From positions 1 to 57,137 of the forward strand of contig NZ_AXAR01000011.1 in assembly GCF_000472905.1 (NCBI RefSeq): a DNA stretch of 57,137 bases, in the 5' to 3' direction. Position 1 is the stretch's first letter; each line of letters starts with the position of its first letter. Positions 6,837-17,818 of this stretch are shown here, piece after piece. Source of the DNA: Alicyclobacillus pomorum DSM 14955. GTDB taxonomy: Bacteria > Bacillota > Bacilli > Alicyclobacillales > Alicyclobacillaceae. The position numbers and the translations under genes were made by a program. Under the pieces are notes generated by a model that ran no database searches, was not told where the DNA came from, and saw nothing but the letters and a program-made list of their open reading frames with translations.

Positions 6837-7436
6837 TCAACATTTCTTTCGTGTGCGCCACATTTTAAGGCCCATTACCGTTGCAATCACGACAATCGCA
6901 ACGAGGACCAACGGAACAAGATATGGATGCAGCGTCTGTTGATATTGGCTCCATGCCACTTCAATATACTTTCCAACGATGATAAAGCAGCCCGCCCACA
7001 CCATGGCACTGACGGCGTTGTACAAGGTAAACAATCCAAAGGACATTTTGTTGATTCCGGCAAGGTACGGAATCAACACACGTATGCCTGCGATAAACTT
7101 GGCGAACAGAATCACAGACGTACGGTACTTTTCAAACGTTGCATTGGCCTTGTCTAGTCGCTCGTTGGTCAGTCCAACAAACCGTCCGTACCTCACGATG
7201 ACCGGTCGTCCCACAAATCTCCCTATCGCATATGCCACCGTTGAACCAGCGATGTTGCCTAGCCCCGCAGCCAACAGAAGAGGGATTAAGGAGAAACCTC
7301 CTCTCATCCACTCAATGCCGGAAAGCGTCAGAGTGGTCTCTGCTGGGAACGGGATTCCAACCATTTCGAAGAACAATATGACGAATACCCCGACGTATCC
7401 GAACTGGTGAATCCATGTTTCCAAACTGAAGTGCAC
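6837..7436 (-). CDS. DedA-family membrane protein (second of a pair)
   Basis: Polytopic inner-membrane protein of about 199 residues of the DedA/VTT family. It has the re-entrant start GYVGVFVILFFEMVGIPFPAE with the conserved acidic residue and ProPheProAlaGlu, and the central (F)AKFIAGIRVLIPYLAG with the invariant Gly-x-Arg. DedA proteins flip undecaprenyl phosphate or phosphatidylethanolamine and support envelope homeostasis. It begins at GTG 7436, immediately after the TAA of the upstream DedA gene, so translation is coupled. It is the second gene of the unit behind the putative ECF promoter at 8081-8107. Confidence 0.87.
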   Translation of the reverse strand: MHFSLETWIHQFGYVGVFVILFFEMVGIPFPAETTLTLSGIEWMRGGFSLIPLLLAAGLGNIAGSTVAYAIGRFVGRPVIVRYGRFVGLTNERLDKANATFEKYRTSVILFAKFIAGIRVLIPYLAGINKMSFGLFTLYNAVSAMVWAGCFIIVGKYIEVAWSQYQQTLHPYLVPLVLVAIVVIATVMGLKMWRTRKKC

Positions 7437-7437
7437 G

Positions 7438-8046
7438 TTATTGCCCCCTACCCACCATTTTCTTTCGGCGACGTATTTCAAAGGCGACAAGAATGATGAT
7501 AATCAGCAGCAGCGCCGCCACCGCATAGGTAAAGGGATGCATCACGTGTTTGACGTTTGCCCAATTCTGTCCCAGTTTGTATCCCGCATAGGCTAATGCC
7601 GCCACCCATGGTAACGACCCGATAGCGGTAAACACAGTGAATCGAATCACCGGCATTTTTGCGAATCCTGCTGGTAAGGATATGAATGTGCGAACACCAG
7701 GCAGGACCCGTCCAATCAGGACAGCCCATTCGCCCCGTTTTTCAAACCAACGCTCGGACATTTGAATATGCTTTTCTGATAGGTGAATCACACGTCCGTA
7801 ACGTTTCACCAAGGGCCGGCCGCCGACCTTTCCCACGTAATATGCGATGATAGAGCCCACGATATTCCCAAGTGTTCCGAAAAGAATGACCCACCATAGC
7901 TGCAAGTGCCCCGTCCAACTTAAATATCCACCAAATGGCATGATAATTTCACTCGGCAGTGGAATGCAGGCACTTTCGAGGATCATTGCGACGAATACAC
8001 CCAAGTACCCTAATGACTGAATCAAGTGAACAATTGTGTTTTCCAA
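7438..8046 (-). CDS. DedA-family membrane protein (first of a pair)
   Basis: DedA/VTT protein of 202 residues. GYLGVFVAMILESACIPLPSE at about 14-33 holds the membrane-embedded acidic residue and Pro-Leu-Pro. IGRVLPGVRTFISLPAGFAKM at about 110-130 is the conserved Arg motif, and the lysine/arginine-rich tail is cytosolic. It starts at TTG 8046 with GGGGTGG seven bases upstream; no ATG fits. Undecaprenyl-phosphate recycling is the best supported role for the family (UptA-type DedA proteins), which agrees with the divergent PAP2 phosphatase sharing its control region. The two tandem DedA genes are related but clearly diverged. Confidence 0.87.
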   Translation of the reverse strand: MENTIVHLIQSLGYLGVFVAMILESACIPLPSEIIMPFGGYLSWTGHLQLWWVILFGTLGNIVGSIIAYYVGKVGGRPLVKRYGRVIHLSEKHIQMSERWFEKRGEWAVLIGRVLPGVRTFISLPAGFAKMPVIRFTVFTAIGSLPWVAALAYAGYKLGQNWANVKHVMHPFTYAVAALLLIIIILVAFEIRRRKKMVGRGQ

Positions 8047-8080: not shown

Positions 8081-8107
8081 AGACCGTGACTCTCCTAAAA
8101 AAGTTCA
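8081..8107 (-). promoter_or_regulatory. putative ECF-sigma promoter of the dedA pair
   Basis: On the minus strand TGAAC (8107-8103) begins TGAACTTTTTT and is followed, exactly 18 bases later, by GTCT (8084-8081) in GGTCTTTTCAT. The same TGAAC-N18-GTCT geometry precedes the mreB-like and both MGDG-type glycosyltransferase genes. It resembles the GAACTT-N16-GTCTAA consensus of sigma-E-type ECF factors. The dedA start codon is 35 bases downstream. Confidence 0.65.
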
Positions 8108-8126
8108 TAGGCATCCATGAACTTTT
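8099..8126. repeat. 10-bp inverted repeat formed by two divergent -35 elements
   Basis: AAAAGTTCAT (8099-8108) and ATGAACTTTT (8117-8126) are perfect inverted copies eight bases apart, midway between the divergent dedA and PAP2 genes. Each arm is a TGAACTTTT box, so the repeat is best read as two back-to-back ECF -35 elements. An operator is the alternative. Confidence 0.6.
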
Positions 8127-8142
8127 GAGAAGTTAGGCGTCT
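8118..8142 (+). promoter_or_regulatory. possible ECF-type promoter of the PAP2 gene
   Basis: TGAACTTTT (8118-8126) is followed by CGTCTCC, with GTCT at 8139-8142. The gap is 16 bases instead of the 18 seen in four sister sites, so recognition by the same sigma factor is less certain. The PAP2 start is 44 bases downstream. Confidence 0.4.
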
Positions 8143-8185
8143 CCTTATATACGAGATAGAAAATTCAACGAGGAGTGTATAGTCA

Positions 8186-8791
8186 TTGAACGCATTTGAC
8201 GTAACCGTTTTTCATGCCGTTAACGGAATGGCAGGACACCATCCCATACTGGATGCCTTGATGCGTTTCTTCGCGCAGTATGCGCTTGAACTGTACGCCA
8301 TCCTGTTTGTGTTGGCATGGTTCCTGTTGCCAAAGCGGGACATTCAAGGACGCCACGCACTCATCATCTCGGGGTTGTCAGGCGTTCTGGCTCTGTTGAT
8401 CAATGTTGTCATCTCACATATTTGGTTCCGCTCACGACCTTTTGTCTCCTTACCAAAAGGTACGTTTACGCAACTCATTCCACACAGTGTGGACGCTTCG
8501 TTCCCGAGTGACCATGCATCGGGAAGTTTTGGCTTTGCTGCAGCCACTTGGGGAAAGTCAAACCGGTGGATTCGTTACTCGTTTACGGTTCTCGCTGTGG
8601 TGGTCGCTTTTTCGCGCATCTATGTAGGTGTGCACTGGCCAACAGACGTACTAGCGAGTTTCGTGGTCGGAACATTTGCTGGCCGGGTGATGTGGCGTTT
8701 CTCACAATTCCTGTACCCAATCACGAAGTTTCTTTGCGCTCTTTTCAAGTTTGGGCAAACATCCGTACAAACTGAAACGCATATGTCCTAA
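8186..8791 (+). CDS. PAP2 phosphatase, BcrC-like undecaprenyl-diphosphatase
   Basis: Membrane phosphatase of 201 residues. The three PAP2 motifs are all present: a basic SRPFVSLPKG segment (motif 1), PSDHASGS with the catalytic-helper His (motif 2) and SRIYVGVHWPTD with the nucleophilic His (motif 3), set among five or six hydrophobic helices. The most likely role is dephosphorylating undecaprenyl diphosphate outside the membrane, as BcrC does. The start is TTG 8186 with CGAGGAG ten bases before it. B. subtilis bcrC is under ECF sigma control, in line with the TGAACTTTT box upstream here. A paralog lies at 55919-56497. Confidence 0.88.
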   Translation: MNAFDVTVFHAVNGMAGHHPILDALMRFFAQYALELYAILFVLAWFLLPKRDIQGRHALIISGLSGVLALLINVVISHIWFRSRPFVSLPKGTFTQLIPHSVDASFPSDHASGSFGFAAATWGKSNRWIRYSFTVLAVVVAFSRIYVGVHWPTDVLASFVVGTFAGRVMWRFSQFLYPITKFLCALFKFGQTSVQTETHMS

Positions 8792-8799
8792 TAAGGGAA

Positions 8800-8820
8800 A
8801 GCCCTCGCTTGGCGAGGGCT
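8800..8820. terminator. terminator after the PAP2 gene
   Basis: AGCCCTCGC and GCGAGGGCT form a perfect nine-pair stem with a three-base loop, followed by CGTTTC. It separates the convergent PAP2 gene and sigma operon and could serve both. Confidence 0.7.
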
Positions 8821-8857
8821 CGTTTCTACAAGTATGAATATACCCTTGTGTCACCCA

Positions 8858-9697
8858 TCAGCGACGCTTCATCATTCTATACATTGAAGCCGTTACCGCA
8901 CCAATCCCAACCATCCACAGCACCACCATTAACAGGATTCCCACAATTGGTATGTTCATGAGAGCGACACAAGCACCCGCGCCAACAAGGGCGTTCAACC
9001 ACATGGGCTTACGCACCTTCGCATATGTGCATGCGAGATCTCCCAGCCAGGTGGACACAACAGCCAATCCCAACAGTCCCACAAAGGCGTACAGCAACAA
9101 CACAATCCCAGCGAGAGGGATTCCTACCTCTGTGATGGCAAGCAGTGCACACATGGAACATACCACTGCCGTAGTTAACAAACCGATGATTCCAGTTCTT
9201 CGCACCGAACTTTTGAGGATAGCGAGCGGTGTCGTCATGTGTCTGCCAGCAACAAACGTCAACAATACGGAAATGAACATAAACACAAGTCCCAGTGCTA
9301 GCATCATCGCCCACAGTAACAACATGCCTGTGATGCCAAAAAGGGTACCGCCCCAGAATGGGCTATGCAGCGACAGACGATAGATTCCTTCCGCAGTGGA
9401 CCCCGAATCTTGCGTCACCGTGCCGTTTAAATCCACAACAATTCCGGTGTGCGCTGCTGGTCCAATGTGGACATTCCCATCCATTACCACCAGAATTTCA
9501 GAAACATTCCCTAGAACGTTCACGTCGTGTTCTAAAACCAGAAGATCTTCGACCGTGGCACCCTTTGGGATGGTGGTTGTTTCCTTGCGGACAACGTTGT
9601 CTAAACGGCGTTCACCCGCAAAACTCATTGGCAGCATGGACAACGTGACCATCATCAAAATAAAGAATACCAAAGTGATTCGAGCGTATCTCTTCAT
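8858..9697 (-). CDS. polymer-forming (bactofilin-like) membrane protein
   Basis: Protein of 279 residues in three parts. A signal or anchor helix (ITLVFFILMMVTLSMLPMSFA) is followed by about 75 residues of short beta repeats (TIPKGATVEDLLVLEHDVNV, NVSEILVVMDGNVHIG) typical of polymer-forming/bactofilin-type beta helices. Four long hydrophobic helices make up the C-terminal two thirds. The ATG at 9697 overlaps the stop of the anti-sigma gene (ATGA), so it is the third gene of the sigma operon. Similar proteins are often coded next to ECF anti-sigma factors. I infer a role in sensing or responding to envelope stress, but no activity is known to me. Confidence 0.75.
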   Translation of the reverse strand: MKRYARITLVFFILMMVTLSMLPMSFAGERRLDNVVRKETTTIPKGATVEDLLVLEHDVNVLGNVSEILVVMDGNVHIGPAAHTGIVVDLNGTVTQDSGSTAEGIYRLSLHSPFWGGTLFGITGMLLLWAMMLALGLVFMFISVLLTFVAGRHMTTPLAILKSSVRRTGIIGLLTTAVVCSMCALLAITEVGIPLAGIVLLLYAFVGLLGLAVVSTWLGDLACTYAKVRKPMWLNALVGAGACVALMNIPIVGILLMVVLWMVGIGAVTASMYRMMKRR

Positions 9698-10197
9698 AAG
9701 ACAGCCTCTTTTTGAATGGAATGAAGCATCCTGCGAATGCCGACCAATGAAATTCCCAAAACCACGAACATGAATGCTCCTACTCCAACAATCCAAACGA
9801 GTTGAAGGACAGATGACATCATGAGCAGCCCATGCAGCATGGCTGCCAGCAGGCGAAACACCACGCGAACGAAGCGCCCAATCGGAGATATGATGAGTAG
9901 CATCATGCCAAAGAACGCAACTGCCATGCCTGCCAGGTATACCTCGAATAAGTGGCGTGTCTGCCTGCTCCCGCTCATCATCTCAAGGCGCTGTAGGACA
10001 GTCGCTTCGATGCCTTCGGGAACATAGAGGCTGTCGAGCAGGGCACGGACACTGCTGCCAACCGCTTGATAGCTCTCCACTACCGACATACATTCTTGGC
10101 ATTGGTTCAGATGACGTCGCGTGGCCTCCATCTCTTCAGGCACTAATTCTCCATCGATATAAGCAGAAAGACGTTCTTGTGGAATGTGATACTGCAC
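9694..10197 (-). CDS. anti-sigma factor with zinc-finger (ZAS) domain
   Basis: Membrane-anchored inhibitor of 167 residues for the adjacent sigma factor. The N-terminal RLSAYIDGELVPEEM, followed by H29-x3-C33-x2-C36 (RRHLNQCQEC), is the zinc-containing anti-sigma (RsiW-like, zf-HC2) signature. Two or three transmembrane helices occupy about 85-160. It starts with GTG at 10197, sharing one base with the sigma stop codon (TAGTG). In the known mechanism the cytosolic ZAS domain holds the sigma factor until envelope stress triggers proteolysis or a conformational change. Confidence 0.88.
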   Translation of the reverse strand: MQYHIPQERLSAYIDGELVPEEMEATRRHLNQCQECMSVVESYQAVGSSVRALLDSLYVPEGIEATVLQRLEMMSGSRQTRHLFEVYLAGMAVAFFGMMLLIISPIGRFVRVVFRLLAAMLHGLLMMSSVLQLVWIVGVGAFMFVVLGISLVGIRRMLHSIQKEAVL

Positions 10198-10733
10198 TAT
10201 GCGTCTCCCCTCTCGTCACTGAGTAACTGACGAAGTTTTGTACGAGCGTTAAACAATCGGGAGCGTACTGTACCCACTGGAACTTCAAGAATTCTAGCCA
10301 TTTCCTCATAATTGAATCCGTGTAATTCGCGCAGAACAATCACAGCACGATGTTCCGGACTTAATTGGTTCAGTGCATTCTCCACATCAATGCGTATCTG
10401 GGTGGAACGATACTCATCCCGTTGAACGTAACCGATGTTACCTTCAAGCGGAGCGGCACGAGACCGATTACTTTTTTCTACCCAGTTGAGCGCAGTTCGT
10501 ACGGCAGTACGTGCCAACCAGGTCGGGAATGTTTCTGGTTGGCGTAGTCCCTTCAATGATTGATAGACCTTGATGAATGTCTCTTGCGTCACGTCTTCCG
10601 CATCAGCGGCATTTCGAAGAATTCCGTACACCGTTCGGTAAACGAAGTTCCGATAATGAGTCACCAAAGTGGAGAAAGATTCGGATCGTCCGCTCATCGC
10701 TGCACGGATAAGGGCAACATCGGATTCATTCAA
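10197..10733 (-). CDS. ECF RNA polymerase sigma factor
   Basis: Group-4 sigma factor of 178 residues. The sigma-2 region holds FVYRTVYGILRNAADAEDVT and QETFIKVYQSL, with the conserved DAEDVTQETF core-binding and -10 recognition motif. The sigma-4 region (LSPEHRAVIVLRELHGFNYE, then IARIL-like helix VPVGTVRSRLFNAR) contacts the -35 element. The start is TTG 10733, eight bases after GAGGAGGTG; longer frames upstream have no better site. It is cotranscribed with its anti-sigma factor and the polymer-forming protein. Four TGAAC-N18-GTCT elements within 7 kb are its likely targets, by inference. No copy of that element precedes its own gene. Confidence 0.92.
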   Translation of the reverse strand: MNESDVALIRAAMSGRSESFSTLVTHYRNFVYRTVYGILRNAADAEDVTQETFIKVYQSLKGLRQPETFPTWLARTAVRTALNWVEKSNRSRAAPLEGNIGYVQRDEYRSTQIRIDVENALNQLSPEHRAVIVLRELHGFNYEEMARILEVPVGTVRSRLFNARTKLRQLLSDERGDA

Positions 10734-10940
10734 AGACGCCTCACCTCCTCGACGAATCCAGTATCCTCCGCCACACATGAGCAGAATTGACGAGCCCTCA
10801 AAAATCCCACGTGTACCCATTGGATACGTCGAGATTCAGTAACGGGCGAAAAAGACCTGAACGGTGTTCATTCCATTCTTTTTAGGCATTTTGAGATGAC
10901 GTAAACGCCATTATCGTTGCCAGTTTCTGCTCCCTTACTC

Positions 10941-10959
10941 CCCAGTCCACTTCACTGGG
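10941..10959 (-). terminator. hairpin at the end of the transglycosylase gene
   Basis: CCCAGT and ACTGGG form a six-pair stem that overlaps the transglycosylase stop codon (10952-10954). No T tract follows, so it is a weak candidate for ending the mreB-like operon. The remaining bases up to 10734 hold the promoter region of the sigma operon, where I find no convincing -35/-10 pair. Confidence 0.35.
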
Positions 10960-11728
10960 ATCCGTGTTTGAGTCGTATCGGTTCGGAGAGAATGCGAAGA
11001 GCGTCACTTGATGTGATAAACCCTGCATTTACCATGTTGCGAACCACCTTTCGTTGCCGCTCTTGTGCGAGGGGCAAGGAGTGGAATGGGTCATACGCAC
11101 TGGGCGCGTTGGGCAACCCGGCGAGCAGTGTTAGCTCTCCGTCGTTCAATTGCTGCGGTCGCATGCCAAAGTACGTTTCGGCGGCGTTGTAGAGCCCATA
11201 GGCATTGTGCCCAAAGTAAATGTCGTTGGTATATAGCGCAAAAATCTCCTCTTTCGAGAGCTGTTTGGTCAAGGCGATGGCATCGACTGCCTCGGTGACT
11301 TTACGCGACAGGGATTTATCTTGCGATAAGCCCAATGCATTTCGTACCAGCTGTTGCGTAATGGTGGATCCACCTTCCGCAAACTGTCCAGACTGTGCAT
11401 CAACAAAGGCGGATCGGAGAATGGCCTTTGGATCAATTCCTGGATTTGACATGAAGGTCTGGTCTTCTGTAGCCAGAATGGCATTGCGAAACAAGACGGG
11501 AATTTCTTCGTAAGTCAGCATGGTTGAATGCCGAACACGATTCTGTTGCGCCACAGCGTTTCTTACTTCCTGCCCCACAGGACACCCATCTTCCAGGTAA
11601 TATTCGATAGCAGTCATTCCTACTAGCGCTATGATTGCTGTTGTGACTATCTTTTTCAGTCGACGTTGAAATCGCGTCGCGACCTGTAGCTCTCTTGATT
11701 CACGACGGACACTTGCACCCACATTCAT
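10952..11728 (-). CDS. monofunctional peptidoglycan glycosyltransferase (GT51)
   Basis: Polymerises lipid II into glycan strands on the outer membrane face. This 258-residue protein has one N-terminal transmembrane helix (about 27-44) and a GT51 domain: catalytic Glu88 in ATEDQTF, the GGSTITQQLVRN motif at 119-130, the second Glu in LSKEEIFALYTNDIYFG, and the YFGxxAYG segment. No transpeptidase domain follows, so it is MtgA-like rather than a class A PBP. Unusually, the EDxxFxxH motif ends in Asn instead of His (EDQTFMSN). The ATG at 11728 lies six bases after GGGGGG. It is 41 bases behind the mreB-like gene and presumably cotranscribed with it from the promoter at 12880-12906. Confidence 0.87.
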   Translation of the reverse strand: MNVGASVRRESRELQVATRFQRRLKKIVTTAIIALVGMTAIEYYLEDGCPVGQEVRNAVAQQNRVRHSTMLTYEEIPVLFRNAILATEDQTFMSNPGIDPKAILRSAFVDAQSGQFAEGGSTITQQLVRNALGLSQDKSLSRKVTEAVDAIALTKQLSKEEIFALYTNDIYFGHNAYGLYNAAETYFGMRPQQLNDGELTLLAGLPNAPSAYDPFHSLPLAQERQRKVVRNMVNAGFITSSDALRILSEPIRLKHGSQ

Positions 11729-11769
11729 CAATATCCCCCCGCACTCAGTTTGTCTCATCCTCATCAGAC

Positions 11770-12792
11770 CTAAAAACTGAATTGTCGCTTGAGAAAGATA
11801 AACTGGTGCCGTTTGGTCTGCCTATCCCGTGCGACCATTTCTCCAGCGCCTATGATGGCACAGTCCAATGGATTGGCTGCCACTTCAACGCGCAGCTTGG
11901 TCTCCCGTTCGAGTGCCAACCGCACATTGTTCATCAGTGCTCCTCCTCCGGTCAAAACAATCCCTCTGCGGTAGATGTCCGCGGAAAGTTCCGGAGGGGA
12001 CTTTTCAAGAACGCTTTTTACCCCATTCACCAGTCGGTCTACGACGGGCTGCAGCGCCTGTATCACTTCCCCGTGGGACACTGTGATTGACTTGGGCAAC
12101 CCGCTTGCCAGGTCGCGTCCGTTAATGTTTGAAGACATGTCTTTATCCGTGTTCGTTGCACGCATTTTTACGTGTTCTGCCGTGTTTTCACCGACCGCAA
12201 TGTTGTATGCAAGCTTTAAATAGTCTGCAATACACTGATCCATATCGTCCCCGCCGATTCGGAGAGATGTTCCTGTAACAATTCCGCCTAGAGAGAGAAC
12301 CGCAATGTCCGTCCGTCCGCCCCCGATATGAACCACCATGCTGCCTGTCGGTTCATTCACTGGCAACCCTGCTCCAGCGGCAGCGCTTAACGCACCTTCC
12401 ACCAGACGTACGTGCTTGGCACCTGCTTGTATGGCCACATCGTGATACGCCTGCCTTTCCACGGGGGTCAGCCCCAATGGGATACACATGGTGAACCGTG
12501 GTTTCATGGAAAGTAGGTGACTTGGCTTGGCTCGATTGATAAAGTGCTCCAACATGACGCGCGCCGCTTCAAAGTCATGAATCACTCCACGTTGTATGGG
12601 TCTTATCACACGAATTGCCTCTGGTGCTTTGCCTATCATTTTTCTTGCTTGTTCGCCTGCTGATTCCAACTCACCCGTTCGTCTCAGTGCGACGACGGAC
12701 GGTTCTTGAAGCACAAGTCCTTTTCCCGGAAGGTACACTCGTGTGTTGGAAGTTCCAGAATCGATAGTCAGACTTGCCTGTTTTACAGCCAT
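11770..12792 (-). CDS. divergent MreB/Mbl-type bacterial actin
   Basis: Rod-shape actin homolog of 340 residues, the normal length. Matching MreB blocks are LTIDSGTSNTRVY (phosphate 1, Asp11 kept), QEPSVVAL, NEPTGSMVV, SLGGIVTGTSLRIGGDDMD, GRDLASGLPK, SPPELSADIYRRGIVLTGG and PLDCAIIGAG. The active-site core is changed. The usual IEEPxAAA reads VEGALSAAA (131-139), and the phosphate-2 motif DIGGGTTE reads HIGGGRTD (155-162), replacing the Asp needed for hydrolysis. Filament dynamics are therefore probably altered. The ATG at 12792 lies 12 bases after GGAGG, a long spacing. It is the first gene of an operon with a transglycosylase, behind a putative ECF promoter, and is likely a stress paralog rather than the housekeeping MreB. 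Confidence 0.85.
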   Translation of the reverse strand: MAVKQASLTIDSGTSNTRVYLPGKGLVLQEPSVVALRRTGELESAGEQARKMIGKAPEAIRVIRPIQRGVIHDFEAARVMLEHFINRAKPSHLLSMKPRFTMCIPLGLTPVERQAYHDVAIQAGAKHVRLVEGALSAAAGAGLPVNEPTGSMVVHIGGGRTDIAVLSLGGIVTGTSLRIGGDDMDQCIADYLKLAYNIAVGENTAEHVKMRATNTDKDMSSNINGRDLASGLPKSITVSHGEVIQALQPVVDRLVNGVKSVLEKSPPELSADIYRRGIVLTGGGALMNNVRLALERETKLRVEVAANPLDCAIIGAGEMVARDRQTKRHQFIFLKRQFSF

Positions 12793-12879
12793 CGCCGATG
12801 CGCGCCTCCATGGTAATATCCGGAGAACGAACATTTCTCCTTGTATTTGAGATGAGTCTTAAGATTGCATTCGTAATAT

Positions 12880-12906
12880 AGACCGAGATGCAACGTGAAA
12901 AGTTCA
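12880..12906 (-). promoter_or_regulatory. putative ECF-sigma promoter of the mreB-like operon
   Basis: On the minus strand TGAACTTTT starts at 12906 and GTCTATATTA at 12883. TGAAC and GTCT are exactly 18 bases apart, as in three other units of this block. It lies about 90 bases upstream of the mreB-like ATG. Confidence 0.7.
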
Positions 12907-13085
12907 TTTGTTCAGGATGAAAACGCAGAATCTTGCCGTGATGCGCTATGCCTAAGAACCACGCGCTATGATCACTGTACGAGCAACGTTGTGGCGGTTA
13001 CGATTGCCAGACGGATGAGGGGAATGTATACTTGCCACAGTGATGCGCGGTGGTTGACTTTGGTTCACAAGGTTGGGGGAATGAC

Positions 13086-13733
13086 GTGGTCACGCCTGAT
13101 GCTACAGCGTTTAAATCTAAGGTATGGACAATCTCCACACTCTTGGTTGTGGTTGTTGTGGTTACGTTATTTTTGTATTTGGACAGGCACGACGCGCTTT
13201 CTCAAGTGCTTCGCTCCTGGGGCGTGGTTGGTGTTATGGCCGCCATCTTGGTCATGGCCATGACATGTGTCACACCGCTACCTGCCGAAGGGCTACTTGT
13301 ACTTTACATGAAAATATATGGCGCTTGGTGGGGTGCCTTTTATTCGTGGATTGGAGCCATACTCAGTTCTCTCGTCGTCTTTGTTGCTGCACGGTATGTG
13401 GGGACGCCGATATTGCGGTCGGTGGTCACGCCTGACCGGTTTCATCAAGTGGACCGTTGGGTGAAGGAGAAAGGCACATCGGGTCTTTTGTTCGCGCGCC
13501 TCCTCCCACTCCCAGGATTCATCATCAGCTATGTCGTGGGAACCATACCTTCCGTACGATTATGGTCATACATATGGACAGGCGCCGTTTCCATCATGCC
13601 CTATTATATCGCTACCGCACTCATTTTTCTCGGTATATCACGTCGCTTGGTTTGGTGGCTGACACTCGGTAGCCTGGCCATCGTGATGTTCTGGGGTGTT
13701 ACGTACGTTGTAAAGAAAAGGTCCATCAAATGA
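13086..13733 (+). CDS. TVP38/DedA-like VTT-domain membrane protein
   Basis: Integral membrane protein of about 215 residues with the VTT (DedA/TMEM64/TVP38) fold. MTCVTPLPAEGLLVLYMKIYG is the re-entrant motif with Pro-Leu-Pro-Ala-Glu, and LLFARLLPLPGFIISYVVG is the conserved Arg hairpin; a basic tail follows. I chose GTG 13086 because GGGGGAA lies just upstream; the longer frame from 13050 has no site. Family members move or scramble lipids such as undecaprenyl phosphate. It stands alone on the plus strand between two minus-strand envelope operons, and no TGAAC-N18-GTCT element precedes it. Confidence 0.83.
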   Translation: MVTPDATAFKSKVWTISTLLVVVVVVTLFLYLDRHDALSQVLRSWGVVGVMAAILVMAMTCVTPLPAEGLLVLYMKIYGAWWGAFYSWIGAILSSLVVFVAARYVGTPILRSVVTPDRFHQVDRWVKEKGTSGLLFARLLPLPGFIISYVVGTIPSVRLWSYIWTGAVSIMPYYIATALIFLGISRRLVWWLTLGSLAIVMFWGVTYVVKKRSIK

Positions 13734-13741
13734 CGTGAGTT

Positions 13742-13766
13742 CGGGCGCGGCGACAACACGCGCCCG
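13742..13766. terminator. GC-rich hairpin between convergent genes
   Basis: CGGGCGCG and CGCGCCCG form a perfect eight-pair stem with a nine-base loop, between the VTT gene and the convergent glycosyltransferase gene. There is no strong T tract on either side. Confidence 0.55.
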
Positions 13767-13792
13767 CTGCTTGTCCCTCTCGTGATGCATCG

Positions 13793-14908
13793 TTACTTCA
13801 CCTGACTGTACTGTGGCGATTGCGTTGCGTGTTGGTGTACCTGACCAAGCACATATTCAGCAATCACGTCAGATGCATCAGGGTGTGCCAATGAAGCACA
13901 CACCTCTTTCATTCGCGCAATTTCACTCCAAAAAGTCCTGTTGGTCAGGATATCTATGAGATCCCTCTCGTTGCGAACCACTTTTCCCGCTCCCATTCGT
14001 TCGAGAAAGTCAGCGTTATCCGCTTCCTGCCCGGGTTGTGGACGATAAAAAATCATGGGACATTGTGAAACCAAGCACTCACTGACGGTGACGCCACCGG
14101 CTTTCACGACGGCGAGTGACGCTCCGCGAAATAACTCCGCGACATTGTCGACGTACGGTAAAGCACGCAGTCGCCGACATCCCGGAATCAACGTCTCAAT
14201 CCGACGGAGCATGGCAGTATTTCGACCGCACATCACGTACACGTCAACGGTGGGTAACTTCGTAAGTATGGTTTGTATCACGTTCTCCAAGTCTGGAAAT
14301 AGCCCACGTCCGCCTGTAGCGAACAGTATGTACGGGGTGTCGGGATGTGTCGGTGCGTTGTGATTCATCACAAATTGGTTGCGGATTGGGATTCCAGAAT
14401 CAATGATTTTCGCGCCACTTGAAACGAACGCTTCCATGTCCGATTTCATGGCAGAATGAGGGATAAAATATGCATCTACGTTCGGATGAAACCAATGGCT
14501 ATGCACGCTAAAGTCTGTTATCACTGCACCGATAAAGGGTTTGACATGCTGCCGAGGCACGAATTCTACCCCATGATCTGGAAATAACTGCAGCACGATG
14601 TCCGGTTGGTACAGTTTCAGGGCACGAACAAACGCCTTGCGGGAAAACAAGGAAAGCCATTTCCAAAGTACATGATTCGGACTTAAGTTCGCCGTTTTTC
14701 TATAAATGAACCCATACAACGCCGGGAAATACCGGGTCGTTACTTCATACAGCCACTGGTTCACCTTGGCAAGAAAGAGATTGGTATTTTCAAAACAGTC
14801 AACCTCAAAGACAGTGACGTCCCTCTGGATAAACGACTCGCGTAGAGCATTTGCCACCTGCCGATGCCCATCTCCAAAGCCCGCAGACAGCAGTAACACC
14901 CTCGTCAT
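13793..14908 (-). CDS. MGDG-synthase-like glycosyltransferase (GT28)
   Basis: Lipid-linked glycosyltransferase of about 371 residues in the MGDG-synthase/UgtP group. The N-terminal domain begins VLLLSAGFGDGH, which binds the acceptor lipid loop, and includes ITDFSVHSHW. The C-terminal GT28 domain holds FATGGRGLFPDLE and VVKAGGVTVSE, and then PGQEADNA for the UDP-sugar. Such enzymes add sugars to diacylglycerol. The reading frame stays open to an ATG at 15046, but homology starts at MTRVLLLSAG, so I place the start at 14908; neither start has a good ribosome binding site. The putative ECF promoter at 15107-15133 drives it. A second paralog lies at 16499-17668. Confidence 0.85.
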   Translation of the reverse strand: MTRVLLLSAGFGDGHRQVANALRESFIQRDVTVFEVDCFENTNLFLAKVNQWLYEVTTRYFPALYGFIYRKTANLSPNHVLWKWLSLFSRKAFVRALKLYQPDIVLQLFPDHGVEFVPRQHVKPFIGAVITDFSVHSHWFHPNVDAYFIPHSAMKSDMEAFVSSGAKIIDSGIPIRNQFVMNHNAPTHPDTPYILFATGGRGLFPDLENVIQTILTKLPTVDVYVMCGRNTAMLRRIETLIPGCRRLRALPYVDNVAELFRGASLAVVKAGGVTVSECLVSQCPMIFYRPQPGQEADNADFLERMGAGKVVRNERDLIDILTNRTFWSEIARMKEVCASLAHPDASDVIAEYVLGQVHQHATQSPQYSQVK

Positions 14909-15106
14909 TGGAATCCCAGCAAATATTGGATAGATGAATGACCAGCCGTCCGCAAGGAGATGACTTCTTTCAATGTACGACGGAACGGAAACAGCAAATC
15001 TGGACTCGCGAGTTGCAGCATGCAAAACACTCTCCGTTATTATCATGGGCTACATGTAGAGCACACAGTTTGAGCGACCATCGAAGGTCTGACACTATCA
15101 CTATAT

Positions 15107-15133
15107 AGACAAGAACAATATGAAAAAAGTTCA
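15107..15133 (-). promoter_or_regulatory. putative ECF-sigma promoter of the first glycosyltransferase
   Basis: TGAACTTTTTT (from 15133 on the minus strand) and GTCTATATAG (from 15110) show TGAAC and GTCT exactly 18 bases apart. The box is nearly identical to the site before the second glycosyltransferase gene. Confidence 0.7.
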
Positions 15134-15202
15134 CGCAGGAACAATTGGAACATGATACCAGATTGCTTCACTACGACGAGATGCGCCTTGCGTGTACATG
15201 TG

Positions 15203-15234
15203 ACGACGCCCACTGTATCTACGGCGGGCGTCGT
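15203..15234 (-). terminator. terminator after the deacetylase gene
   Basis: ACGACGCCC and GGGCGTCGT form a perfect nine-pair stem just downstream of the polysaccharide deacetylase stop. It separates this operon from the next promoter at 15107-15133. The T tract is weak. Confidence 0.6.
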
Positions 15235-15244
15235 GTAGACACTT

Positions 15245-15958
15245 CTACCAATCGGATACCTTTGAAAAATCATATCCCTGACTTCTGAGATGTTCAATGA
15301 GTTTAGGTAACATCTCAATCACTGCATTGGGCGCCCCATGTTCACTTCCGAACGTTTCATCGCTATCATGCAAGACGATAATGGCGCCAGGATGTAGCTT
15401 GCGTAGAATTCTATTCATCAGCGTTTCCCAGGTCGTTTTACGCCAATCCCCAACGATAACCGACCACGTAACCAGCTTGTGTTTGGTTTTGTGTAGCCAT
15501 GCAAGGACGACCCAATTACAAAGCCCCCACGTGGGGCGGTACAACGACGTCCTGATTCCGAAAACCTGATGCAGAGCTTGTGCTGAATCACGCAGTTGCT
15601 TCCGGCTGCGGCTGGGCAGCAGCAAGGGTACACAAGCATGCGTATATCCATGCACTTGTATCTCGTGTCCTTCTCGCATCATCCGGTGAATGATGTTGGG
15701 ATATTTCAGTGCCTTTTCTGCAATGACAAAGAACGTCGCTTTCACTCCTGCGTCTTTCAGAACATCAAGCACCCTTGGAGTATAGCGTGGATCCGGACCA
15801 TCATCAAAGGTCAAAGCGACGGACCGTGTTGCAGGTCCTCTCCAAACACAGTGCCAGTGGAATACGCGGACAAACACATTGGGCAGGATGGAATAGATGA
15901 CGAACAGCACGACAAGACAACATATGGTAATCCACAGAATTTGCACTGAAGTCAACAT
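15245..15958 (-). CDS. polysaccharide deacetylase-family membrane protein
   Basis: Predicted extracytoplasmic carbohydrate esterase 4 enzyme of 237 residues. One N-terminal transmembrane helix (about 7-28) anchors a NodB domain. ALTFDDGPDPRYT (about 48-60) supplies the catalytic and metal Asp, HGYTH (about 103-107) the two metal His, and RPTWG and VLHDSDE the later motifs. It probably removes N-acetyl groups from peptidoglycan or another wall glycan. Start choice is uncertain: ATG 15958 directly abuts AAAGAAGG, and TTG 15955 is the alternative. It is the last gene of the unit 17668-15245, six bases after the DUF212 gene. Confidence 0.83.
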   Translation of the reverse strand: MLTSVQILWITICCLVVLFVIYSILPNVFVRVFHWHCVWRGPATRSVALTFDDGPDPRYTPRVLDVLKDAGVKATFFVIAEKALKYPNIIHRMMREGHEIQVHGYTHACVPLLLPSRSRKQLRDSAQALHQVFGIRTSLYRPTWGLCNWVVLAWLHKTKHKLVTWSVIVGDWRKTTWETLMNRILRKLHPGAIIVLHDSDETFGSEHGAPNAVIEMLPKLIEHLRSQGYDFSKVSDW

Positions 15959-15964
15959 CCTTCT

Positions 15965-16447
15965 TTAAAAAATCATTGCTCCCTTCGCCTGAAGGCACAG
16001 AACAATGTGTGATACGAGGGCTATGACCACTCCAAGAAGAACGCCTCCAACCACCTCCGCCGGTGTGTGCCCCTGCCTTTGCCAATGACGAAACCGCCGG
16101 AATACGTGAGGTTTGATATCCACTCCGGCTTCGTGTAACTGGGCAATTAACTCGTGAAGAATCAGTGCGTGCTCCCCCGCTTGTCGTCGAACCCCGATTG
16201 CGTCATAGATTACCACGATGGACGAAACAAATGACACAGCAAACCAAGGTGAAGACCATCCATAAAAGAACAAGCAGCTCGTTGTCAGTGTACACATCAG
16301 CGCGGTGTGAGAACTCGGCATGCCACCGGTAACGAGAAACCGACTCCATTTCCATTCCTTATGATACCATCGATAAGCGATAACTTTGTATAACTGCGCA
16401 ACGACCATCGCCAATATGGAAGAAAACAATAGTACCTGACCATGCAA
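15965..16447 (-). CDS. divergent PAP2 (DUF212/YuiD-like) membrane protein
   Basis: Integral membrane protein of 160 residues in the DUF212 family. The motifs GGMPSSHTA (about 41-49), YDAIGVRRQAGEHA (about 81-94) and GHTPAEVVGGVLLG near the C terminus correspond to degenerate acid-phosphatase motifs, so phospholipid or polyprenyl phosphate binding is possible. Activity has not been settled for the family, to my knowledge. It starts at TTG 16447, about eight bases after GGGAGAG. It sits between an MGDG-type glycosyltransferase and a deacetylase in one operon, which supports an envelope-lipid role. Confidence 0.85.
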   Translation of the reverse strand: MHGQVLLFSSILAMVVAQLYKVIAYRWYHKEWKWSRFLVTGGMPSSHTALMCTLTTSCLFFYGWSSPWFAVSFVSSIVVIYDAIGVRRQAGEHALILHELIAQLHEAGVDIKPHVFRRFRHWQRQGHTPAEVVGGVLLGVVIALVSHIVLCLQAKGAMIF

Positions 16448-16498
16448 AACAGGTCTCTCCCTTACTTACGTTCAGCGATTTCCGACAGCCAACTGTAC

Positions 16499-17668
16499 CT
16501 ACTCACTCGCTGCAGGAATCCAGGTATGAATCGGAGTTTCTACATCCATCAATAACTCTGGGTGCAGTAAGAGTTGTGCGATACGGTTGGATGCTTTTGA
16601 AGTATCACGGTTTGCGGTGCCCAGATGGAACTTTGCTCTTTGTTCTCTCTCTGCGACAAATTCGGACATGATTCTTTCGGCGTCCGCCAAAGAATAAAAC
16701 AATTGCGCTGCGCCGCGTTTCACTGCGTAACAAGCATTTGCGTATTCTTGTCCAGGAATGGGACGAAACAACAGCATGGGGAGTCCCAGACTGAATGCTT
16801 CTGTCATGGTCAGTCCACCCGCTTTCGTAACCAGCATGTCCGCCATGGCCATCCACTGTTCGATGTTTGGCACGTACCCAAACACCCGCACGTTGTTGGA
16901 CTCTAAATCACGGAGTTGGTGATATAATCTTTGATTCTTTCCGCACACAATCACAAACTGCGCATCGACGCGCTTTGTGATACGTTCCCACATCGACGCT
17001 GTACCAATGATTCCTTCACCTCCCCCCATGACCAGAAATAAAGGCTTGTTTCCATCGATGCCGTTTTTGAGGCGCAGTTGCAGTCTTCGAGAGGGGTCAT
17101 CTCGAACTTCTTGCATTTCGTTGAACACCTTACGAATAGGTAGACCCGTTACATGGATTTTACGAGCGGGAACCCCCATACGTTGTAATTCTCGACCGAC
17201 TTCTTCGCATGCAACGCAATATAAATCGACATTTGGATGGACCCAATGTCCATGCACAGTATAATCTGTAATGACTTCCACATTTGGAACTGATGTCATC
17301 CCACGCGCGCGCAACTCAGAGACTATTCCTACTGACGTGGGATGCGTGCTACAGACCACATCAGGTTGGAATGACTGGAGAATCGACGATATCTTTCTTC
17401 TTCCTAGCCGAAATAATTGCCTCTCGACAAATGACTTGGACCGGTTTGTGGACAATGCATCGTACATCACGCCGTACAACCATGGAGCTTTCTTGAGCAC
17501 TTGTAAGAAGACGCGCGTCACAATCGGACGGACAGACGGATGAAGGAGTTTGACTAAATCGACCACCTTCACCACCGCTCCTCTTTCTTCCAACATTTCC
17601 TTTACGGCATGGCAAGCCTGGTTGTGTCCACTACCGAAGGACGCTGTAAACAGTAGTACTCTAGGCAT
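16499..17668 (-). CDS. MGDG-synthase-like glycosyltransferase (GT28), second copy
   Basis: Protein of 389 residues with the same two-domain layout as the copy at 13793. RVLLFTASFGSGHNQA opens the MGDG-synthase domain, VITDYTVHGHWVHPNVDLY lies near 140-158, and the donor side has FLVMGGGEGIIG and LVTKAGGLTMTEA, then RPIPGQEYANA. It probably glycosylates diacylglycerol or a related lipid at the inner membrane. CAGGAG lies three bases before the ATG, somewhat close. It is the first gene of a three-gene unit (glycosyltransferase, DUF212, deacetylase) behind the ECF-type promoter at 17792-17818. The two copies differ enough to suggest different acceptors or sugars. Confidence 0.87.
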   Translation of the reverse strand: MPRVLLFTASFGSGHNQACHAVKEMLEERGAVVKVVDLVKLLHPSVRPIVTRVFLQVLKKAPWLYGVMYDALSTNRSKSFVERQLFRLGRRKISSILQSFQPDVVCSTHPTSVGIVSELRARGMTSVPNVEVITDYTVHGHWVHPNVDLYCVACEEVGRELQRMGVPARKIHVTGLPIRKVFNEMQEVRDDPSRRLQLRLKNGIDGNKPLFLVMGGGEGIIGTASMWERITKRVDAQFVIVCGKNQRLYHQLRDLESNNVRVFGYVPNIEQWMAMADMLVTKAGGLTMTEAFSLGLPMLLFRPIPGQEYANACYAVKRGAAQLFYSLADAERIMSEFVAEREQRAKFHLGTANRDTSKASNRIAQLLLHPELLMDVETPIHTWIPAASE

Positions 17669-17791
17669 TTTCTCCTGCCTCCCAATCCGCTCCCAAATCG
17701 TCAGTATCTTTTCTATGTGAGCTATGATTCTCGGATCCGAAGCACATGGCTCCGGTATCCGCGATGGATACCAAGGTTCGACACATTATAT

Positions 17792-17818
17792 AGACAAGTG
17801 TGACGCATAAAAAGTTCA
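17792..17818 (-). promoter_or_regulatory. putative ECF-sigma promoter of the second glycosyltransferase operon
   Basis: TGAACTTTTT (from 17818, minus strand) and GTCTATATAA (from 17795) have TGAAC and GTCT 18 bases apart. With the sites at 8081, 12880 and 15107 it defines a shared element, TGAACTTTT-N14-GTCTATATA. Confidence 0.7.

Follow-up and report, generated by a model that had tools for sequence, protein, structure and literature searches.

A probable extracytoplasmic function sigma factor regulon of the cell envelope, centred on undecaprenyl phosphate recycling, in Alicyclobacillus pomorum

Here we report the analysis of a stretch of 57,137 nucleotides from Alicyclobacillus pomorum DSM 14955 (contig NZ_AXAR01000011.1, positions 1 to 57,137), called the window below, in which a gene for a sigma factor of the extracytoplasmic function (ECF) type is accompanied by a set of promoter-like sites, TGAAC-N18-GTCT, lying ahead of envelope genes. 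The two probably belong to one ECF sigma regulon that serves the cell envelope and has the recycling of the carrier lipid undecaprenyl phosphate at its centre. The regulon looks real, because relatives carry the same motif before the recycling genes and before the sigma gene. The support is drawn from sequence: the sites with their constant spacing, the absence of the strict form from the rest of the genome, the conservation of the motif before the sigma, PAP2 and DedA genes, and its co-occurrence with the sigma gene.

Results

An earlier note, made from the letters of the window, had claimed that four minus-strand units are each preceded by TGAAC and GTCT exactly 18 bases apart, and all four sites are exact at the positions given: they lie upstream of a pair of dedA genes (8107-8081), of an mreB-like gene and a transglycosylase gene (12906-12880), of glycosyltransferase A (15133-15107), and of glycosyltransferase B, a DUF212 gene and a polysaccharide deacetylase gene (17818-17792). 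The extension described after TGAAC is also present, all four sites reading TGAACTTTT, and so is the sequence following the gap, GTCTATAT, in three of the four. The list of targets stands as far as these four units are concerned, and is incomplete for the rest: a fifth site on the plus strand (8118-8142), with TGAACTTTT and a 16-base gap to GTCT, had been overlooked together with its gene. It faces the opposite way, in the interval separating the dedA pair from a divergent PAP2 gene of BcrC type, and ends 43 bases ahead of the latter. Under first-order Markov statistics of the window (60 simulations), 0.3 copies of TGAAC-N18-GTCT are expected and 4 are found (Poisson P 0.00027); for TGAACTTTT-N12-15-GTCT, 0.033 are expected and 5 found (P about 3e-10).

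The genome-wide scan which the note had proposed, as a check on random occurrence, was run as pattern searches over the 3,398,558 bases (36 contigs) of the source genome. The strict form, TGAACTT-N15-17-GTCTATA, has three matches, all inside the window, and none in the reversed control: it is restricted to this locus, not randomly scattered. A looser form, TGAACTT-N14-18-GTCT, has 19 matches, five of which in the window; since these compare with 7 in the reversed control, matches outside the window are probably for the most part background. Eleven of these 14 fall within an open reading frame of at least 100 amino acids, on either strand, and two have no clear gene behind them. The remaining one, a TGAAC-N18-GTCT, lies 143 bases ahead of an MscS-like gene, encoding a mechanosensitive-channel domain (locus L006, G000:C2:104849-104875), which is a possible sixth target.

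The sigma factor (10197-10733, minus strand; 178 amino acids, TTG start behind AGGAGG) is the sole ECF sigma gene of the window, as the note had it, next to its anti-sigma gene, and its contig gives one sigma match. It features regions 2 and 4 of sigma-70 without the rest, in about 180 amino acids, and scores 62.7 bits with Sigma70_r2, 59.4 bits with Sigma70_r4_2 (Pfam, both over the cut-off) and 101 bits with TIGR02937, whose cut-off is 42.9. For region 4, the best PDB match is the E. coli sigma-E region-4 chain 2h27 (8e-11), 1or7 being matched as well; the -35 recognition helix, PVGTVRSR-F-AR, is common to all three, and residues G154-R159 and A163-R164 are invariant in 23 aligned sequences. 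Thirteen sigma-70-type proteins of the source genome score over the cut-off, about four of them of ECF type, as judged by eye from region 4. The window sigma alone contains GTVRSRLFNAR: none of the other 12 contains GTVRSR, the closest sequence being GTVRTR (L030). The sigma-E-type promoter logic proposed in the note is supported by the region 4 match, and likewise by the sites of sigma orthologues, the PAP2 and DedA sites and the co-occurrence with the sigma gene reported below; taken together, these data suggest that the window motif is very probably the promoter read by the window's ECF sigma factor.

Conservation was evaluated in 41 genomes of the same family, probably Alicyclobacillaceae, 30 of which, including the source genome, have an orthologue of the sigma gene. 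The family assignment rests on one of these genomes, G002, whose squalene-hopene cyclase aligns over 631 residues, with no difference visible, to PDB 1gsz, the Alicyclobacillus acidocaldarius enzyme. The 29 other orthologues share 44-56% identity with the window sigma, and any further match is much weaker. The 350 bases ahead of these 29 genes were searched for TGAAC-N{k}-GTC at every k between 5 and 40: k=18 was found in 25 of them and any other k in no more than two; one of the 25 sites (L078) lies 277 bases from the sigma gene and may be due to chance. Two of the orthologues lacking k=18 (L076, L092) lie downstream of a DedA gene having its own 18-base site, and the other two (L088, L065) feature TGAACCAAA with a different -10, as judged by eye. 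Upstream of the PAP2 orthologues, k=18 is found in 11 out of 15 and k=17 in three, and the 17- or 18-base version falls within about 100 bases of the gene in 13. DedA genes adjoining sigma carry the 18-base version around their start in 6 of 9 cases.

The strict pattern TGAACTTTTN{12,15}GTCTNTA gives 16 matches in 12 of the 41 genomes, and none in the reversed control; 14 of them lie ahead of PAP2, DedA, sigma or transglycosylase genes or of units of the window itself, as judged by BLAST to the window proteins, by Pfam or by reading of the translations. Of the other two, one lies ahead of a polysaccharide-flippase-like protein (28.0 bits, cut-off 28.2) and one ahead of an unassigned protein. 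With TGAACTTTTN{13,14}GTCT, 34 matches were obtained, against 10 in the reversed control: 21 precede genes of the set just listed, three precede other proteins (one of them polysaccharide-flippase-like, two unassigned), eight are coding or unclear and two were left out of the assignment. This pattern is present in 21 of the 30 genomes with a sigma orthologue and in none of the 11 without (Fisher p 5e-5, which, like all co-occurrence p-values given here, overstates independence because the genomes are related), and the reversed control features no such bias (p 0.4).

A relaxed pattern, TGAACY-N16-17-GTCTRTA, with 40 matches against 28 in the reversed control, was not used as evidence. In G005, G010 and G015 (L182, L183, L292) the motif lies ahead of what is seemingly one and the same family of membrane proteins. 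A reading by eye of the L100 protein as YiiX-like was discarded, no Pfam family being found in it, and the protein counts as unassigned.

A wider scan, in which 80 sigma loci were listed and screened by script, produced 78 which are mostly distant RpoE relatives. Among the 80 listed, and outside the family, the Shimazuella kribbensis locus groups PAP2, DedA, sigma, anti-sigma, orf3 (the third gene of the sigma operon, described below) and a second PAP2 gene, with two divergent TGAACTTTT...GTCT sites, having gaps of 17 and 18. In Paenibacillus phytorum a single gene (L199 4647-5942) encodes a VTT (DedA)-PAP2 fusion, both domains scoring over the cut-off, and lies directly ahead of sigma, anti-sigma and orf3.

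The identities proposed for the sigma, anti-sigma and target genes are as described in the note. The dedA pair (minus strand) encodes a UptA-like DedA protein (7438-8046; VTT_dom 95.9 bits, UptA model 175 bits) and a second DedA protein (6837-7490; VTT_dom 61 bits, UptA model 113.8 bits), and the PAP2 gene (8186-8791, plus strand) a phosphatase of the undecaprenyl-diphosphate phosphatase (BcrC) type (PAP2 70.7 bits, PRK11837 92.4 bits). These proteins belong to the same domain families as UptA and BcrC, VTT_dom and PAP2, respectively, but score below the curated equivalog cut-offs (250 for the UptA model, 229 for PRK11837), so that UptA and BcrC functions are assigned by family only. A third DedA gene of the window (13050-13733, plus strand) is without ECF motif and has a sigma-70-like site at 13004-13032.

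The other targets are all on the minus strand. The MreB-like protein (11770-12834) scores 375 bits with MreB_Mbl and 387.6 with PRK13927, over its cut-off of 293, and falls just short of TIGR00904 (360.4 versus 365.75); the gene behind it (10952-11764) encodes a stand-alone peptidoglycan transglycosylase domain protein (Transgly 187 bits), matched by TIGR02074 over the transglycosylase part only. Both glycosyltransferases resemble UgtP and MGDG synthases: A (13793-15046, the start of which may be 14908) scores 86 bits with MGDG_synth and 229 with PRK13609, below the cut-off of 500, and B (16499-17668) 120 bits with MGDG_synth. The glycosyltransferase B unit continues with a divergent PAP2 (DUF212) protein (15965-16447; PF02681 135.7 bits), the gene of which adjoins the sigma operon in G004 and G014, and ends with the polysaccharide deacetylase (15245-15958; PF01522 104.8 bits). 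A paralogue of glycosyltransferase B, 70% identical, found elsewhere in the source genome (L190, G000:C19:8000-19727), is without motif and adjoins a deacetylase-like gene. On another contig (G000:C12 46067-47522), the squalene-hopene cyclase of this genome is matched in separate frames, and is perhaps broken or mis-assembled.

In the window, as in all 20 loci of relatives examined, the genes for sigma, anti-sigma and orf3 lie side by side. The anti-sigma factor (9694-10197, minus strand) is a membrane zinc-finger protein, with an H-x3-C-x2-C motif followed by three hydrophobic segments (zf-HC2 35.6 bits, cut-off 22.2); H29, C33 and C36 are almost invariant in 17 sequences, and simple hydropathy shows no large external part, the hydrophobic segments numbering two or three. 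The orf3 product (8858-9700, minus strand) begins with a signal sequence or membrane segment, continues for about 100 amino acids and then passes into several membrane segments. No Pfam family was found for the window copy, one of 17 family members matches DUF7268 weakly, and the single-sequence AlphaFold model is poor (mean pLDDT, the predicted local distance difference test score, 54).

Discussion

The mechanism that we infer would start with the zinc-finger anti-sigma factor keeping the sigma factor at the membrane, with the polytopic membrane protein orf3 probably acting as anti-sigma partner or sensor. A disturbance of the envelope, most likely a drop in free carrier lipid, would release the sigma factor, which would then bind the TGAAC-N18-GTCT promoters and turn on the BcrC-type phosphatase and the DedA, UptA-type, carrier flippases and, in addition, the MreB-like protein with the transglycosylase and the glycolipid glycosyltransferases. 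The parts of this scheme are not equally firm. The activities of the enzymes are assigned by family. Recycling of the carrier lipid is rather probably the function of the regulon; that the carrier lipid is itself the direct signal is a tentative suggestion.

Two known systems resemble the one described here. The promoter consensus of sigma-E and AlgU (ECF02) is GAACTT...GTCT-like, and the SigM promoter of B. subtilis reads TGAAAC...CGTC. With E. coli sigma-E and P. aeruginosa AlgU, the window sigma shares an almost identical -35-reading helix and a similar promoter. It nevertheless fails the RpoE model TIGR02939 (116.1 bits versus 236.15), by which identity with RpoE is ruled out; its anti-sigma factor fails RseA_N (21.8 bits, cut-off 24), and its targets are carrier-lipid and wall genes. 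Identity with SigM is likewise ruled out by the curated model, where the window sigma, the best of four sub-cut-off matches in the genome, reaches 76 bits versus 199, and which no protein of the source genome passes. Moreover, the window anti-sigma factor is of the zf-HC2 type, and the window motif differs from the SigM one.

The likeness to SigM lies in the arrangement. In B. subtilis, SigM, with the YhdL-YhdK pair, answers to the pool of free undecaprenyl phosphate, and its targets include bcrC, uptA, mreB and ponA (PMC11081497, PMC11898649); bcrC is in addition controlled by further alternative sigma factors (PMC5723303). In both systems an ECF sigma factor would be joined to a two-protein membrane anti-sigma complex, and the targets, judged by motif in the window system, overlap strongly, with bcrC (PAP2) and uptA (DedA) types among them; the signal, undecaprenyl phosphate, is known in B. 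subtilis, and would be the candidate in the window system. The sensing of a shortage of the lipid carrier of wall precursors has been addressed only recently, in B. subtilis (PMC11081497). Among the papers listed from the open-licence literature in PMC, no account of the present sigma/anti-sigma/orf3 system was found.

Besides the relatedness of the genomes compared, several observations weigh against the regulon as outlined. In the co-occurrence test, the strict form yields a weaker value (12 of 30 genomes versus 0 of 11, p 0.018), and the TGAACCAAA form, with 15 matches and 2 in the control, is not significant (14 of the 15 in genomes with sigma; 10 of 30 versus 1 of 11, Fisher p 0.23). At the Paenibacillus locus no TGAAC...GTCT site was found. 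Within the window, the gap of the fifth site is two bases shorter than the consensus, and a sigma-70-like match (8075-8046) lies between the dedA site and the dedA gene. Autoregulation through a target promoter is frequent, though not general, among ECF sigma factors; unlike most of its orthologues, the window sigma gene has no TGAAC-N18-GTC of its own. Since it follows the mreB-like and transglycosylase genes in the same orientation, at a distance of 219 bases, the promoter at 12906 may include it; autoregulation in the source genome would then proceed by read-through from the mreB promoter, across a gap that contains a weak hairpin (10878-10859). Finally, the motif of glycosyltransferase B is absent in 29 out of 29 relatives, and the GTCT site of the transglycosylase is found in 2 of 28 anchored relatives only (G038 and G039, both of genus g15, in the 17-base version).

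Because of these last figures, the glycosyltransferase B and transglycosylase units rest mainly on the window motifs. The earlier note had seen one self-contained envelope-stress stimulon: as a regulon, this is supported for a conserved core, made up, on comparison of the genomes, of sigma, PAP2 and DedA, and less firmly for the glycosyltransferase and mreB units, which look like lineage-specific, later additions to the regulon.

The alternative that survives best is a general envelope-stress regulon comparable to those of sigma-E or SigW, responding to misfolding, detergents or antimicrobial peptides, in which recycling would be one output and not the quantity sensed. We consider it possible rather than probable. 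The -35 helix and the motif are indeed sigma-E-like, zinc-finger anti-sigma factors answer many kinds of signal, and glycolipid synthases and an MreB-like protein exceed what carrier recycling calls for; however, the core found across genera is PAP2 plus DedA, that is, both recycling steps, even fused in Paenibacillus, and the anti-sigma factor has, from its hydropathy, no large external domain.

A second alternative retains sigma, PAP2 and DedA as a true regulon and explains the mreB and glycosyltransferase sites as look-alike housekeeping promoters, with GTCTATATAAT-like -10 boxes. TATAAT-like runs do occur in the -10 regions of these sites, and the lack of the glycosyltransferase B motif in relatives would fit. 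Yet all three sites are TGAACTTTT at exactly 18 bases, their 14-base pattern has no further occurrence in the 3.4 Mb assembly, and a sigma-70 scan gives no site at these three places: the explanation appears improbable. That the repeats are operators, relics of duplication or chance occurrences, as their clustering within 10 kb might suggest, is scarcely credible for sites which are directional, fixed in spacing and upstream of genes, differ in their spacer sequences, are conserved in other genera and are rare genome-wide.

If the regulon for carrier-lipid recycling is accepted, a broader proposal can be put forward, which we regard as speculative and rather doubtful: the sigma/zinc-finger anti-sigma/orf3 operon might sense the undecaprenyl-phosphate pool as a second device of this kind, built independently and used by Bacillota that lack a canonical SigM; orf3 would represent a new family of membrane sensors, and in this lineage stress-inducible genes for wall shape and glycolipids would have been recruited next to the operon. 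Apart from this proposal, an ECF sigma factor with a different type of anti-sigma factor and a different promoter code appears to be linked to both of these recycling steps in several genera, and the comparison of the window system with B. subtilis would permit two solutions to be set directly side by side. The promoter code appears precise enough for the core regulon to be read in new genomes, and it flags orf3, whose window copy falls within no Pfam family, as a candidate sensor.

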